Shown: positions 3,342 to 28,494 of the stretch, one piece after another
How positions within the stretch are numbered: position 1 is the first letter of the stretch
Layout: the number at the start of each line of letters is the position of its first letter
DNA from: a virus
DNA length: 41,282 nucleotides
Strand: one strand, 5' to 3'
Virus record (IMG/VR): IMGVR_UViG_3300045107_000868
Coordinates: 1 to 41,282 of that record
Notes under the pieces: model-generated
Told to the model about the DNA's origin: nothing
The model's database searches: none
The model's input: only the letters and a program-made list of their open reading frames with translations
Translations under genes and position numbers: made by a program

Positions 3342-3704
3342 TCAATTCCACATAAAGTTCAGCGCCTGCTGGTCAACGACCGCGAGCACCACCACCTCGG
3401 CCGCCGACCACACCTGGTCGCGGTAGGCCGGATTGGACGAGCGCAGGATAACCGTCTCGTCATCCCCTCGGAAACCTCGTTTCAGCGTTAAACCGTAGGG
3501 GGTGCCGAACACGGAAATCCGTCCTTCCCGGAACTCGTTCGTCAGACGAGCCGACAACCGGTCGCCGTTGCGGATTCCGTCCCCCAGCATCGAATCCCCT
3601 ACCACGTCGATAAAACAGAATTTCGTCCGGGCGCCACGCCGGAACCGGCGCACCGCAAAGTCGAGATCGACCGCGCGCCCTCCGCAAACTTTCAAAGCGA
3701 GCAT
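3342..3704 (-). CDS. Stand-alone LexA/S24 peptidase domain, candidate half of a split repressor
   Basis: This 120-residue protein corresponds to the C-terminal domain of LexA, CI and UmuD proteins, with no HTH domain. Ser38 in VVGDSMLGDGI matches the catalytic serine, and Lys75 in GLTLKRGF matches the catalytic lysine. A Cys-Gly pair at residues 7-8 recalls the UmuD cleavage site, but this is only a resemblance. The ATG overlaps the stop of the upstream RHH gene (TGATG at 3706-3702), which implies translational coupling. The RHH protein could supply DNA binding, and this protein could supply dimerisation and RecA-responsive cleavage or sensing. Two paralogues occur in this window, each behind a C4-type leader. 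The family is secure; the split-repressor role is inferred. Confidence 0.85.
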   Translation of the reverse strand: MLALKVCGGRAVDLDFAVRRFRRGARTKFCFIDVVGDSMLGDGIRNGDRLSARLTNEFREGRISVFGTPYGLTLKRGFRGDDETVILRSSNPAYRDQVWSAAEVVVLAVVDQQALNFMWN

Positions 3705-4036
3705 CAGCGTTTTCCTTTTTTTTCTCGTTCCAGTCGTCGTTCTTCTTCGATTCGAGCGTCGGCGTCCATGTAAAGGACGGGGATAGTAGATGGGGCAACT
3801 ACTTCAGGGACGTCCTCGTCCTTGGCTTCCCTTAACGCTTCTAAAATCATCTTTTTCAACAACTTATCTTGGCCAATCAGTTGCCTTTCAAGGAGGACAA
3901 TAATTTCTTGAGCGACTGATCGCCGTTCGTCTTGAGCGGCTTTGATTAACAGCTTGTGCAACTCACGCGGAATGTCCGCAGAAATCCGCACGGAATCCAT
4001 TTCTTCGAAAAGCTGTTTTTTCCCAGTTCCAGACAT
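3704..4036 (-). CDS. Ribbon-helix-helix DNA-binding protein, likely repressor
   Basis: Residues about 14-52 have the Arc/MetJ pattern: a short beta strand (SVRISADIP), then two helices (RELHKLLIKAAQDERRSVAQEIIVLLERQL). A charged, probably helical tail runs to residue 110. It is the first gene of the leftward operon and is coupled to the S24-domain gene. No clear Shine-Dalgarno precedes the ATG. A possible but poor -10 lies just upstream, so a leaderless transcript, as for lambda cI from its maintenance promoter, is possible. It faces another RHH gene across an 85-bp region containing a palindrome. The arrangement is that of a CI/Cro-like switch built from Arc-like proteins, by analogy with P22 Arc/Mnt. 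Confidence 0.85.
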   Translation of the reverse strand: MSGTGKKQLFEEMDSVRISADIPRELHKLLIKAAQDERRSVAQEIIVLLERQLIGQDKLLKKMILEALREAKDEDVPEVVAPSTIPVLYMDADARIEEERRLEREKKGKR

Positions 4037-14251: not shown

Positions 14252-14427
14252 GGTGCTCAAAACACCTACAAGCGGTACATCACGCCCGTCAGCCGTGGCT
14301 TTTTTATGCCTGAAAAACTCGGGCATGCCCTCATTTGTCGGGAGTGGGCCGAATACAACACGCGCAAGCGGAATAAGCCCGCGGTTCTTGTAGCCGTTTT
14401 GAGCCCCCGACACCCCTTTCTCGGGGT
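14252..14427 (+). ncRNA. C4-type antisense RNA leader, copy 1
   Basis: The leader begins with the hairpin GGTGCTCAAAACACC (14252-14266), continues through TACAAG (14267-14272), a CACG/CGTG element followed by six Ts (to 14305), GTCGGG (14337-14342), CTTGTA (14387-14392) and CCCGAC (14406-14411), and ends at an ACCCC...GGGGT stem. TACAAG complements CTTGTA, and GTCGGG complements CCCGAC. That is the arrangement of the a'/b' and a/b segments in the P1/P7 C4 antisense RNA, where a processed RNA blocks translation of the antirepressor mRNA. The sequence closely resembles my memory of enterobacterial C4/P4 immunity regions; a covariance search would settle this. It precedes an S24 domain and a Rha antirepressor. 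Confidence 0.7.
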
Positions 14428-14458: not shown

Positions 14459-14785
14459 GTGAAACATTCATCTTCTCTCGTCAGGCGATCCCGTCGCCAA
14501 GCTCAAACGCTTTTCGTCCGCGCCGTTGGAAACTCGATGCTTGGAGACGGCATCCGCCACGGCGAAACACTCTCCGCCCTTCCCGTCGATACTGTCGAGG
14601 AAGGGCGGATTGCCGTTTTCAGTACCCCGCACGGCCTCACGCTCAAGCGAGGGTACGCCGGGGCCGACGGCACCGTCATCCTCCGCGCTTCCAACCCCAC
14701 CTACCCCGATCAGCGATGGCTTGCCAATCAGGTGCGCGTCGTCGCCGTCATTGACCACGCCGGCCTTTCCGCCAAGTGGAACTGA
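14459..14785 (+). CDS. Stand-alone S24 peptidase domain behind C4-type leader, copy 2
   Basis: This protein has 108 residues from a GTG with GGGGG about 9 nt upstream. Ser26 in AVGNSMLGDGI and Lys63 in GLTLKRGY mark the LexA/CI-type catalytic dyad. It is a clear paralogue of the S24 protein at 3.3 kb and of the one at 27.5 kb. There is no HTH. The frame is open further upstream through the C4-type leader, and an ATG at 14306 would give 159 residues with a leader-encoded extension; the GTG is preferred because the leader is conserved as RNA, not as protein. It could compete with or cleave the repressor partner; that is inference. Confidence 0.75.
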   Translation: MKHSSSLVRRSRRQAQTLFVRAVGNSMLGDGIRHGETLSALPVDTVEEGRIAVFSTPHGLTLKRGYAGADGTVILRASNPTYPDQRWLANQVRVVAVIDHAGLSAKWN

Positions 14786-14854: not shown

Positions 14855-15580
14855 ATGACCGAACTCACCAAAACCGAAATCCATCTTGAACGCAAAGATC
14901 GGAACATTTACGCAAGCAGCCTCGAAATCGCCGAACGATTCGGGAAACAGCACAAGGACGTTTTACGCAAAATCGAAAGCCTTCTAGCCGAACTTGCCGA
15001 AGTCGAACCCGAAATCAAACGATTTGGAGAGATCGAATCATGGGATCAGCGCAATTTTGCGCCGATTACCTACATTGATGATCGAAACAGGCCGCAAACA
15101 ATGTACCTCGTGACGGAGCAAGGCTTTGCGCTCCTTGCCCTTTCCTTCACCGGAAAGGAGGCTCTTGTCTGGAAAATAAAGTACATCCAAGCCTTCGAAG
15201 ATATGAGAAACCTGTTGGGACTCGAACTCGAAAAACAACAAAATCAGGAATGGGAAGAGTTCAAGCGGTTGGCCGTAATTGCTTATGAAGAAAAACTTTA
15301 CGGTCGCAAGCCGCCGGAGATTCCCCGGTCGAGCGCACCCGAAGGCTACTACACGCTCCGCCAGTGGATCACCAAGCATAACCTTGCCGTTTACCACGGC
15401 AGCATTGTTCCCAAGGCCAAGCGGGAGGCCATACGACTCAGCAAGTACTACAGACACCCCGTGATGCTAGTCGTCGACGAGGACGAGCGAACCGACAAAG
15501 CCTTTCACCAAGTCATTCTGGAAGAAGTATTTAAGTACCCTGGATGGTTCAAGAATCCTTCTCCTTTGCCCCTCGAATAA
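14855..15580 (+). CDS. Rha family antirepressor/regulatory protein
   Basis: This 241-residue protein has an N-terminal phage_pRha domain (about 10-110): IYASSLEIAERFGKQHKDVLRKIE, then YLVTEQGFALLALSFTGKEALVWKIKYI. The C-terminal half (about 120-241) is a distinct domain with YYTLRQWITKHNL and is probably responsible for target interaction, as in Ant-type proteins. Rha proteins act as phage regulators or antirepressors. The AAAGGAAA site lies eight bases upstream. It closes the C4-S24 unit, and a strong terminator follows, which matches P1 immI, where C4 controls Ant. The family is secure; the antirepressor role is based on family and position. Confidence 0.85.
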   Translation: MTELTKTEIHLERKDRNIYASSLEIAERFGKQHKDVLRKIESLLAELAEVEPEIKRFGEIESWDQRNFAPITYIDDRNRPQTMYLVTEQGFALLALSFTGKEALVWKIKYIQAFEDMRNLLGLELEKQQNQEWEEFKRLAVIAYEEKLYGRKPPEIPRSSAPEGYYTLRQWITKHNLAVYHGSIVPKAKREAIRLSKYYRHPVMLVVDEDERTDKAFHQVILEEVFKYPGWFKNPSPLPLE

Positions 15581-25227: not shown

Positions 25228-26286
25228 ATGGCCGAGTTTATCACCAGAGATATTGATTTACTGATCAGCAAATCGCCGGAGTCGGCCTACAACACCGCGT
25301 ACGTCGATGCCACCGATTTTCAGCGCATGCTGACGACCGGGGCGCCGGTTGCGCTTCCGACCCTCGAAAAGCTCGACGATTCGGACCGGATTGGCCAGGG
25401 CGACGAGTTTGCGCGTCAGGCACGCGGAAACTACTGGTCGCAGCCGAAGTGGCAGATCAGCGACACGGTCAACGTCGATTTGACGGCGCTGCTGCTCGCG
25501 CGAGCGCTCGGCGGCACGGTGACCGATACGCTTGTCGCGACAGGGGTCTACGACCACACGTTTTCGCACCAGGTGGACGCCGACGGGCGCCAGCTTCCGG
25601 CGAGCGACGTCGTGCAGAACGTCGGCGGCCAGGATTGGCTTTTCTCCGGCGTCATCGTCGGCGCGTTTGGTTTTTCGCAGGAAGGCGCAAACGCTCCGAC
25701 GTTTACCGCTGACCTCGTCGGGTCCGGCAAACACGTCAAAATCTCGTCAATCGATCCGGCGTTCGGCGATTTTCCGGACACGATTGACCAGAATTTTATG
25801 CACGGCGCGGCGACGGTTGTGTCCTACAATGACGGCTCGCTGCTCGATTTCAGCGCCGCTGGACGTTTGAGAAACGTCTCGTTTCAGTGGGCAAACAATC
25901 CGCGCGAAAACGACCGGCGTCCGGGCGATCCGTTCCTCGTGAGCGGCGACCATTTCAAGGGCGCCTACGTCAATCGCTGTTTGCGCGGTCGGCGTCAGCT
26001 TCAAATTTCTCTCTCCGTCACGCTCGACGAAAACCAGCGCGAGTACACCAAAAACAAGGAAACGACGGTTCTGACGAACGTCAAAGTGCTCTGCAAGGGC
26101 GCGAAAATCGACAGCACTCGATACAACGAGTTGGAGCTGACGGTGCCCCGGGCCGTGATTATGTCGCTTGAGGGCGGCACGGCCGACGAGGACCTCGTCC
26201 AGAACCTGACGCTCATGCCGCTCGCCAATTCGAGCGGTCAGATTCTTACCGCGCGCATCCGGAATGCGTCGGCCACCCTTGTCTGA
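25228..26286 (+). CDS. Major tail tube protein
   Basis: This 352-residue, mostly beta protein begins MAEFITRDIDLLISKSPESA and contains the typical region RIGQGDEFARQARGNYWSQPKWQ of non-contractile tail tube proteins. The C-terminal third (LEGGTADEDLVQNLTLMPL) closes the domain. There is no sheath gene, so the tail is siphophage-like. The ATG has GAGGGC upstream. Its stop is one base from the stop of the oppositely oriented tnpB gene, leaving no room for a terminator. Confidence 0.8.
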   Translation: MAEFITRDIDLLISKSPESAYNTAYVDATDFQRMLTTGAPVALPTLEKLDDSDRIGQGDEFARQARGNYWSQPKWQISDTVNVDLTALLLARALGGTVTDTLVATGVYDHTFSHQVDADGRQLPASDVVQNVGGQDWLFSGVIVGAFGFSQEGANAPTFTADLVGSGKHVKISSIDPAFGDFPDTIDQNFMHGAATVVSYNDGSLLDFSAAGRLRNVSFQWANNPRENDRRPGDPFLVSGDHFKGAYVNRCLRGRRQLQISLSVTLDENQREYTKNKETTVLTNVKVLCKGAKIDSTRYNELELTVPRAVIMSLEGGTADEDLVQNLTLMPLANSSGQILTARIRNASATLV

Positions 26287-26287
26287 T

Positions 26288-27499
26288 TCAGGCTCGATCG
26301 GCATCCCTAGCACTTTCAATATGCAAAGGTTCACTCTTCATTGGCCCAACCAACGTCGAGCCTCCAAGCGCGGAGACGGCGTGCCTCGCCGCCTGCGCGA
26401 GTTCAATCCCTCGCGCAAGGATGTTCAGAGCAGCGTTGTGGTCGCGGTGGAGTTCAGTCCGGCAGTGCGGGCACTTGTGCCACCGGACAGAGAGTGCTTT
26501 CGGGACTCTCTCCCCGCATCCGCTGCAATCCTGCGACGTGTACTGCGCGGCCACGTTCATGGCTTTCGTACCGGCCCATTCTGCCTTGTACTCAAGCATT
26601 CGAATAAACGCGCTCCACGCGGCGTCGGCAATGTGTTTCGCCAGTTTGCGATTCTTCATCATTCCGGCGATGTTCAAATTTTCAAAACAGATCAGGTCAT
26701 GCCGGTTGACCAATTTCCGCGACAGCTTGTGAAGAAAGTCCCGGCGCTGGTCGGCGACCTTGCGGTTCAGCGCGGCGACGCGAGCCTTTGCGCGCTTACG
26801 TCGCCCCGATCCCTTCTTCTTGCGGCTCAGTCGTCGTTGGGCCTTTTTGAGTCGGTCTTCGGCTCGCAGAAGGTGGCGCGGATTCTCGACGCGCCTGCCG
26901 TCGCTGGTGGTCAGGAAAGCCTCGACGCCGAGGTCGATGCCGACAGGCGAGGTAATTGCAGCAGGCGCGGTCGGTGGGGCGTCGGGAAGTTCGCAGGAGA
27001 AAATAACGAACCACCTTTCGCCTTCGCGTTTGATCGTGACGGTTTTGACCCTTCCTCCGACGAAGCGGGAAAGTCGGACGCGCATGGAGCCGATTTTTGG
27101 AAGAGTCAGCTTGTCGGCTTTCAGCCAGTTAAAAGGAGACCGTTGATCAATCTTGAAAGTAAAACTGTCGTAACGGTCTCGTCCTTTATAGCGAGGGAAT
27201 CCCGGTTTTTGTCCAGCCTTGACGCGGCGGAAAAAGCCGTCGTAGGCAAACTGAACTCGCCTGAGAACGTCCACCAAGGTATCCGCATAAATGGTTTTGT
27301 ATTCAGGACAAACAGCTTTCAGTCCGGGCAACTCCGCCGACTGCTCGTAGTAGCTGAGGGTCTTGCCCTGCATCAACCACGCTGCGCGGCGTTCGGTGAG
27401 GCAGGCGTTGTACAGCTCGCGACAAAGCTCCAGCGTCTCCGCCAGCCTTTCGGCGACGGCCCTGCTTGGAACAATACGGAACTTGAACGCCTGTCTCAT
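26288..27499 (-). CDS. tnpB: TnpB, RNA-guided nuclease of the IS200/IS605 group
   Basis: This protein has 403 residues from ATG 27499; an open frame further upstream runs into the S24 gene and is not preferred. The RuvC triad is complete: D189 in VGIDLGVEAF, E273 in CFENLNIAGM and D353 in HRDHNAALNIL. The zinc ribbon cysteines are C325, C328, C343 and C346. AGGTGG inside the end of the S24 gene is a good Shine-Dalgarno, and only two bases separate the S24 stop from this ATG. There is no tnpA, no left-end sequence upstream, and no noncoding right end before the tail tube gene. It therefore looks like an operon gene, not a stand-alone transposon. It could use a guide RNA from its 3' end, which would include tail tube antisense sequence; that is inference. 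Confidence 0.9.
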   Translation of the reverse strand: MRQAFKFRIVPSRAVAERLAETLELCRELYNACLTERRAAWLMQGKTLSYYEQSAELPGLKAVCPEYKTIYADTLVDVLRRVQFAYDGFFRRVKAGQKPGFPRYKGRDRYDSFTFKIDQRSPFNWLKADKLTLPKIGSMRVRLSRFVGGRVKTVTIKREGERWFVIFSCELPDAPPTAPAAITSPVGIDLGVEAFLTTSDGRRVENPRHLLRAEDRLKKAQRRLSRKKKGSGRRKRAKARVAALNRKVADQRRDFLHKLSRKLVNRHDLICFENLNIAGMMKNRKLAKHIADAAWSAFIRMLEYKAEWAGTKAMNVAAQYTSQDCSGCGERVPKALSVRWHKCPHCRTELHRDHNAALNILARGIELAQAARHAVSALGGSTLVGPMKSEPLHIESARDADRA

Positions 27500-27501
27500 T
27501 A

Positions 27502-27855
27502 TCAGCACCACCTTGCTTCGGAACGCGGAAGGAGGACGGCCACGACGCGGACCGCATTCACGGGCCATTGCTGGTCAGGGTATTCGGGATCCGAGGATCG
27601 AAGGGTGATGGTTCCGTCCGGGTTGCGGAATCCGCGCTTGAGGGTAAGGCCCGAAGGAGTGGAAAAGACGGCGACCTGCCCCTGCCCCGCCGAATCGGAA
27701 AGCGTGGCCAAAATGCGGTGTCCGTCAAGAAAGCCGTCTCGGGCCATTGAATTTCCACGGACGTGGATGACGGCAAGCCTTCCCTCAAAGGCAGCACATC
27801 GCAATTGCCTTGAAGGAACAAAGGCCGGTTTCAAGGAAGGAAAAAAACGCTTCAT
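27502..27855 (-). CDS. Stand-alone S24 peptidase domain behind C4-type leader, copy 3
   Basis: This 117-residue protein starts at ATG 27855 with GGAG six bases upstream. Ser36 in VRGNSMARDGF and Lys73 in GLTLKRGF form the LexA/CI-type dyad. It aligns end to end with the copies at 3.3 kb and 14.5 kb, with shared segments VAVFSTPxGLTLKRG and RVVAV, but its N-terminus is longer than copy 2. No HTH is present. It is followed by tnpB two bases later and preceded, after one base, by the stop of a leader peptide, so three translational couplings may be chained. It may act on the repressor complex; this is inferred from homology with the repressor-associated copy. Confidence 0.85.
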   Translation of the reverse strand: MKRFFPSLKPAFVPSRQLRCAAFEGRLAVIHVRGNSMARDGFLDGHRILATLSDSAGQGQVAVFSTPSGLTLKRGFRNPDGTITLRSSDPEYPDQQWPVNAVRVVAVLLPRSEARWC

Positions 27856-27856
27856 G

Positions 27857-28003
27857 TCAGCTCCCTATCTCGTAGGTGATACGAGACCCCAAGGAAGGGG
27901 TGTCGGGAGCTCGAAACAGTTGCAAGAACTGCGAGCGTATTCCGCTTTCGCGTTTTGTATTTCGCTCACTCCCGACATAGAGGCATGCCCGGATTTCGGG
28001 CAT
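27857..28003 (-). CDS. Possible leader peptide within the second C4-type RNA
   Basis: The ATG in the conserved segment GGCTTTTTTATGCC (28003-28001) opens a 48-residue frame ending TGA one base before the S24 ATG (TGACATG). It spans the predicted antisense target segments, as the small Icd/Orfx frames do in P1-like immunity regions, so translation through it could be what the RNA controls. No Shine-Dalgarno precedes its ATG, so expression is uncertain. Confidence 0.35.
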   Translation of the reverse strand: MPEIRACLYVGSERNTKRESGIRSQFLQLFRAPDTPSLGSRITYEIGS

Positions 28004-28056
28004 AAAAAAGCCACGGCTGACGGGCGTGATTTCCGCTTACAGGTGTTTCGAGCACC
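27886..28056 (-). ncRNA. C4-type antisense RNA leader, copy 2
   Basis: The leader begins at the hairpin GGTGCTCGAAACACC (28056-28042) and ends at an ACCCC...GGGGT stem. It shares most positions with the leader at 14252, including CACGCCCGTCAGCCGTGGC plus a T6 tract. TGTAAG (28041-28036) pairs with CTTGCA (27926-27921), whereas copy 1 has TACAAG and CTTGTA; the second pair changed from A-U to G-C on both sides. GTCGGGAG (27976-27969) is exactly complementary to CTCCCGAC (27909-27902). Conservation of pairing with change of bases supports RNA function. Reading frames are shifted between the two copies, so protein conservation does not explain the similarity. Confidence 0.7.
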
Positions 28057-28063
28057 GGAGGCA

Positions 28064-28091
28064 AGTATAGAGAAAAACCTCACGGTTTCAA
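28064..28091 (-). promoter_or_regulatory. Promoter of the second C4-type leader
   Basis: On the minus strand TTGAAA (28091-28086) and TATACT (28069-28064) are 16 bp apart, and seven bases separate the -10 from the first G of the leader at 28056. Both distances are identical in the unit at 14.2 kb. Confidence 0.75.
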
Positions 28092-28122: not shown

Positions 28123-28494
28123 ATGAAGAATTTTCTCAACGCATTGTTCAGTGCGTCGAACGCCAAGGCGATTATCACGTTTTTGGTCGGCTTGGGCGTG
28201 AGCATCGCGGCGCGCTTCGGGCTGAATTTGACGCCCGAGGACACGAATGCCGCCATCGTGATTTTTTTGTTCGTGGCCGGCTTCTTCGTTCAGGACGGCT
28301 CGACCGGGAACTGGAAATCCACGCTCGCGGGATTCGTCGGCGCCGTGCTCTACGTTCTCGCGCGTTTCGGGCTGCACCTGCCGGCCGACATTCAGGCCGG
28401 ACTGATCTCCATCGTCGGTTTCGTCATCAGTTGGCTGCGTGTGCCTGGGAGCTACAACCCGGGACCTGAGCCGATTCCGAAGGTGGGGACATGA
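28123..28494 (+). CDS. Holin-like membrane protein
   Basis: This 123-residue protein has an N-terminal soluble stretch and three hydrophobic segments (about 17-36, 44-56, 63-115 in two parts), with a short charged C-terminus. The size, the multiple membrane helices and the position just before spanin-like genes fit a holin that sets the time of lysis. GGAG is about eight bases upstream of the ATG. It starts 32 bp from the promoter of the opposite C4-type unit. The stop overlaps the next start (ATGA). Confidence 0.65.
   Translation: MKNFLNALFSASNAKAIITFLVGLGVSIAARFGLNLTPEDTNAAIVIFLFVAGFFVQDGSTGNWKSTLAGFVGAVLYVLARFGLHLPADIQAGLISIVGFVISWLRVPGSYNPGPEPIPKVGT

Follow-up and report, generated by a model that had tools for sequence, protein, structure and literature searches.

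A nuclease-intact TnpB in the antirepressor slot of an sRNA-Xcc1 unit in a probable temperate phage

The window analyzed here is the whole of IMG/VR virus record IMGVR_UViG_3300045107_000868 (41,282 bases). It carries an integrase, an Arc-like repressor and terminase, portal, capsid and tail genes, which together make it probably a temperate phage, as well as a primase-like gene. On its minus strand (28091-26288) lies a self-contained unit in which a promoter, a leader and an RNA of the sRNA-Xcc1 family (RF02221) precede two genes, one for an S24 peptidase-domain protein and one for TnpB. We propose, with a probability of a little under 60%, that a tnpB gene lacking transposon ends was captured behind a duplicate of an antirepressor control unit, where it replaced the antirepressor as the second gene. 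We know of no description, in the open-access literature searched, of a TnpB under such a leader.

Two sister units, one with Rha and one with TnpB

A second unit of the same phage (14217-15580) consists of a promoter, an RF02221 RNA and an S24 gene followed by Rha. Over the stretch that runs from the promoter through the RNA, 155 of 189 positions (82%) are identical in both units, and the promoter-like site before the Rha unit, TTGATT-16-TATGAT, is homologous to that of the TnpB unit. Identity between the S24 coding sequences is 59% (191/324), and the flanks of the two units are about 50% identical, which is near random. The homology stops at the S24 stop codon, after which one unit continues with Rha and the other with TnpB. 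An earlier annotation made from the sequence alone (hereafter the initial annotation) had described the TnpB unit as copying the promoter-leader-S24 order of the Rha unit, and these identities bear that out.

The protein encoded by tnpB has the features of a complete nuclease. Its Pfam OrfB_IS605, TNB and HTH domains all pass, it scores 326 bits, above the NCBI cut-off for guided TnpBs, and it matches ISDra2 TnpB at E = 4e-64 in an alignment covering most of its length. RuvC residues D189, E273 and D353 and the four cysteines of a CCCC zinc ribbon are all present, in agreement with the initial annotation, and these catalytic residues and cysteines are invariant across an alignment with eight relatives (44-49% identity). 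Most closely related to it are IS605-type TnpBs of Thermus, Deinococcus and Chloroflexota and of some of their phages.

Only two nucleotides separate the S24 stop (27504-27502) from the TnpB ATG (27499-27497), and a Shine-Dalgarno sequence, AAGGTGG, lies upstream within S24, as first annotated; this placement cost S24 no residues. Among 80 viral relatives of tnpB, several have a tnpA-like gene that ends a few nucleotides from the tnpB start, the place taken here by S24.

The leader RNA and its usual partners

Both RNAs in the window score above the RF02221 gathering score of 53 bits, while the covariance model of the C4 family, RF01695, gave no match in the window up to E = 5. The initial annotation had called the RNA C4; its antisense logic is indeed C4-like, but its family is sRNA-Xcc1, known as a Xanthomonas virulence-associated small RNA. 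In most of the phage contigs sampled from IMG/VR (L004-L122), RF02221 precedes antirepressor genes and pairs with its own leader. On account of these two properties, sRNA-Xcc1 looks like a C4-type immunity RNA, that is, a putative antisense leader of phage antirepressors. In three contigs (L031, L061 and L091) RF02221-like RNAs occur near antirepressor genes as tandem pairs, 0.2-0.5 kb apart.

From IMG/VR we fetched 72 distinct units through the conserved core of the RNA. The first gene after the RNA mostly encoded a P22_AR, KilA-N, Bro-N, Rha, AntA or ORF6N domain, and in none of the 72 was it TnpB or S24. As antirepressor-type domains dominate these units, TnpB sits in an antirepressor-type slot, the position originally proposed for it. 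The TnpB unit shares with known sRNA-Xcc1/C4-type antirepressor leaders the RNA family, a distance of about 40-120 nt before the gene and the complementarity to its own leader; it differs from them in that the genes behind its RNA are S24 and TnpB, with no antirepressor.

In each window unit the 3' half of the RNA is complementary to a stretch of its own leader. The pairing scores, 36 and 36.5, compare with a 95th percentile of 25 in shuffled sequences, and two double, compensatory changes are among the differences between the units. Folding of the TnpB-unit leader gives z = -4.9. Across 79 family members, duplex energies were lower with an RNA's own leader than with those of others (p = 6e-12, sequence kinship not being removed), and own-leader pairing fell below the 5th percentile in 16 of the 79. 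This family-wide test supports a C4-like role for sRNA-Xcc1, that of an antisense leader before phage antirepressors. Control of the TnpB unit by a predicted antisense leader is well supported by sequence; processing of the RNA and repression by it are inferred. It is also possible that the leader folds on itself in place of antisense pairing, and the same helix would serve both. In a gapped duplex test the RNA of the TnpB unit paired with similar strength to either leader, its own (-31.4) or the one in the Rha unit (-29.8), which makes cross-talk between the two units possible.

In the C4 scheme reported for P1, loops a' and b' act on a target that includes a ribosome-binding site (PMC5320573), whereas here the segment that pairs with the RNA is on its 5' side. 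The window RNA is nonetheless C4-like in place and logic, even though the C4 model does not match it.

Transposon ends, guide RNA and a second case on a plasmid

TnpB guide RNAs overlap the 3' end of tnpB and the right end of the transposon. The initial annotation had noted that tnpA and the left end are missing from the TnpB unit, which is correct, but it overlooked that the right end is missing from the 3' end of tnpB too, so that none of the three components of an IS200/IS605 element is present. Stem 4 of the omega RNA and its 3' pseudoknot strand are built from the right-end hairpin and the terminal GTCAA/GTCAC. In the ISDra2 structure, the crRNA-like part and the pseudoknot consist of the final hairpin, which has a UUUA loop, and the nucleotides after it (PMC10097598). 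We modeled this terminal element and counted matches at the tnpB 3' end at E <= 0.01. The model matched 61 of 80 viral TnpB loci, 27 of the 61 lying outside the training set, and 14 of 15 other relatives, the 15th scoring E = 0.011. In the tnpB region of the window its best score was 5.9 bits, inside tnpB and at the wrong place (18-57 bits in relatives), and a search of the rest of the phage for a right-end element or a trans guide gave only chance-level scores. Compared with TnpBs of the Desulfovibrio group and of mycobacteriophages, the window still has a recognizable upstream portion of the guide RNA, and it is the terminal hairpin that the alignment loses.

Because stem 4 and the 3' pseudoknot strand are missing, the window tnpB is probably not open to normal mobilization, and the sequence does not support a canonical guide RNA made at the 3' end of the gene, where the initial annotation had suggested one. 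Compared with IS200/IS605 and IS1341-type TnpBs such as that of ISDra2, the window thus retains a full protein with the catalytic DED, the zinc ribbon and part of the omega-RNA core, but lacks tnpA, the left end, the right-end hairpin and the terminal pseudoknot strand.

Two observations concern right ends elsewhere. Many records of mycobacteriophages (L156, Mycobacterium phage Rialto and many relatives) have, close to lysin A, a TnpB whose right end is intact. The Rfam family HgcC (RF00062) matches a TnpB omega RNA plus right end in L248 at 2786-2905 (NZ_CP116247.1 51285-51404; 27 bits, E = 0.004, below gathering), which suggests that HgcC is itself an IS605 omega RNA family.

A DNA search with the leader and S24 returned a 42-bp match on the Nitratidesulfovibrio vulgaris plasmid pDsulf-L2-2, on the same strand and upstream of a gene-TnpB pair. 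There, an RF02221 RNA (69.7 bits, E = 2e-11) precedes a 203-aa gene with no Pfam match and a weak likeness to phrog_12849, and TnpB starts three bases after the stop of that gene; the pairing of this leader was missed by an ungapped test and found by the gapped one. The plasmid unit thus shares with the phage unit an RF02221 leader, a small gene and a closely following TnpB. It differs in that its middle gene is unrelated, its TnpB is only 33% identical and its right end is intact, and from these differences the leader-gene-tnpB arrangement arose at least twice. It is also rare, as the covariance model found an RF02221 RNA in 0 of 80 viral and 0 of 17 other TnpB loci. None was found either in about 600 genomes of two phyla reached through TnpB relatives, so that these gave no host for the phage, and an RNA-then-S24 motif did not occur in the viral contigs.

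Competing readings and surroundings of the unit

We favor a history in which tnpB would have been captured behind a copy of the promoter-leader-sRNA-Xcc1-S24 unit and both transposon ends lost. The RNA would be processed from the leader and pair with the leader of new transcripts, such that production of S24 and TnpB would chiefly follow the entry of phage DNA into a cell that lacks resident RNA and would be off in the lysogen, with TnpB translated through coupling to S24. TnpB might then cut competing or host DNA; as its own 3' end encodes no canonical guide RNA, a guide in trans or a non-canonical RNA would have to be supposed. A nuclease-intact TnpB under a superinfection-immunity RNA, seen in two cases whose partners differ, would link RNA-guided nucleases to the lysis-lysogeny switch, and the window unit lets one test directly at what point a mobile element needs its nuclease.

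Several findings weigh against the capture we propose. The initial annotation had proposed homologous loci as a check, and the leader-gene-tnpB order recurs on the plasmid; the S24-tnpB pair, however, is known from one record only, and among viral contigs and phages we found no relatives of this S24. In codon use, tnpB and the neighboring S24 resemble the phage less than the structural genes do, as after recent acquisition. The intact right end on the plasmid could mean that the plasmid case is a simple insertion, and without the 3' end of an omega RNA the nuclease may be inert.

The main rival, which we consider distinctly less probable, is that chance placed an insertion sequence consisting of tnpB only behind a spare S24 unit and that deletion then removed its ends, leaving an intact but useless remnant. 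The absence of both ends, the single record and the slightly foreign codon use all fit such a passenger, as does the frequency of TnpBs in phages (569 phage records). A useless remnant accounts less readily for a 403-codon frame with every catalytic residue intact, for a start so close behind S24 at no cost to it, for leader pairing maintained through compensatory changes and for a second, independent case on a plasmid.

An extension of capture goes further and is, to us, unlikely: sRNA-Xcc1/C4-type leaders would have been recruited more than once, in phage and plasmid, such that the TnpB nuclease is made only on entry into an element-free cell, as a zygotic, guide-dependent factor against competitors, the guide of the phage being non-canonical or in trans.

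More doubtful still is the weapon of the initial annotation, in which TnpB cuts competing phages guided by an RNA made at the 3' end of its own gene. The intact nuclease residues and the partly conserved omega-RNA core would suit it, and TnpB is capable of gene drive against copies that lack the element (PMC11870625), but the parts missing from the omega RNA are those that form its crRNA-like portion in the ISDra2 structure. Nuclease-dead TldRs and Cas12 are known outcomes of TnpB domestication. TldRs, which are phage-encoded TnpB derivatives with non-transposon neighbor genes (PMC13418256), resemble the window TnpB in standing beside such genes in a temperate phage, but an RNA-guided transcription repressor of this kind is very improbable here, for TldRs have a broken RuvC site and retain a guide RNA, while the window unit has an intact site, no recognized guide RNA and a putative antisense-leader control. 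We therefore rejected TldR identity on the intact nuclease site.

Features of the two units and their surroundings in the window
Feature	Coordinates	Strand	Evidence or remark
Sigma-70-like promoter, TTGAAA-16-TATACT	28064..28091	-	10/12 consensus bases
Leader arm GGTGCTCGAAACACCTGTAAG, complementary to RNA 3' half	28036..28059	-	inverted repeat, 24 nt, 79%; pairing score 36.5
Attenuator-like hairpin CACG-CCCGTCAGC-CGTG, then T6	28004..28028	-	loop conserved in other units; putative function
sRNA-Xcc1 RNA (RF02221), TnpB unit	27893..27977	-	63.0 bits, E = 3.5e-9; own model 71.9 bits
S24 peptidase-domain gene without DNA-binding domain	27502..27855	-	PF00717, 2.4e-11; catalytic Ser (GNSM) and Lys (LTLKRG) kept
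TnpB, 403 aa, catalytic DED and zinc ribbon intact	26288..27499	-	domains, cut-off, ISDra2 match, alignment
Conserved omega-RNA core (GGAGGC...GCCAATGAAGAGTGAACC) at tnpB 3' end	26328..26390	-	common to Desulfovibrio and mycobacteriophage TnpBs
Expected place of right-end hairpin and terminal GTCAA, absent	26288..26327	-	model and alignment
sRNA-Xcc1 RNA, Rha unit	14336..14420	+	61.2 bits
S24 paralogue, Rha unit	14459..14785	+	domain match, alignment
Rha antirepressor-type gene	14855..15580	+	PF09669, 3.7e-27
Tail tube gene	25228..26286	+	stop 1 nt from convergent tnpB stop
Holin-like late gene, other flank of S24-TnpB unit	28123..28494	+	phrog_9284, weak

The TnpB unit lies between the tail tube and holin-like genes. 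Among the close phage relatives searched for an empty site, portal proteins were only 24-36% identical and the genes flanking the unit had no detectable relatives, so that the insertion site gave no date. A third S24 paralogue, at 3342-4036, follows the Arc-like repressor gene near the integrase and stands without an RF02221 RNA.
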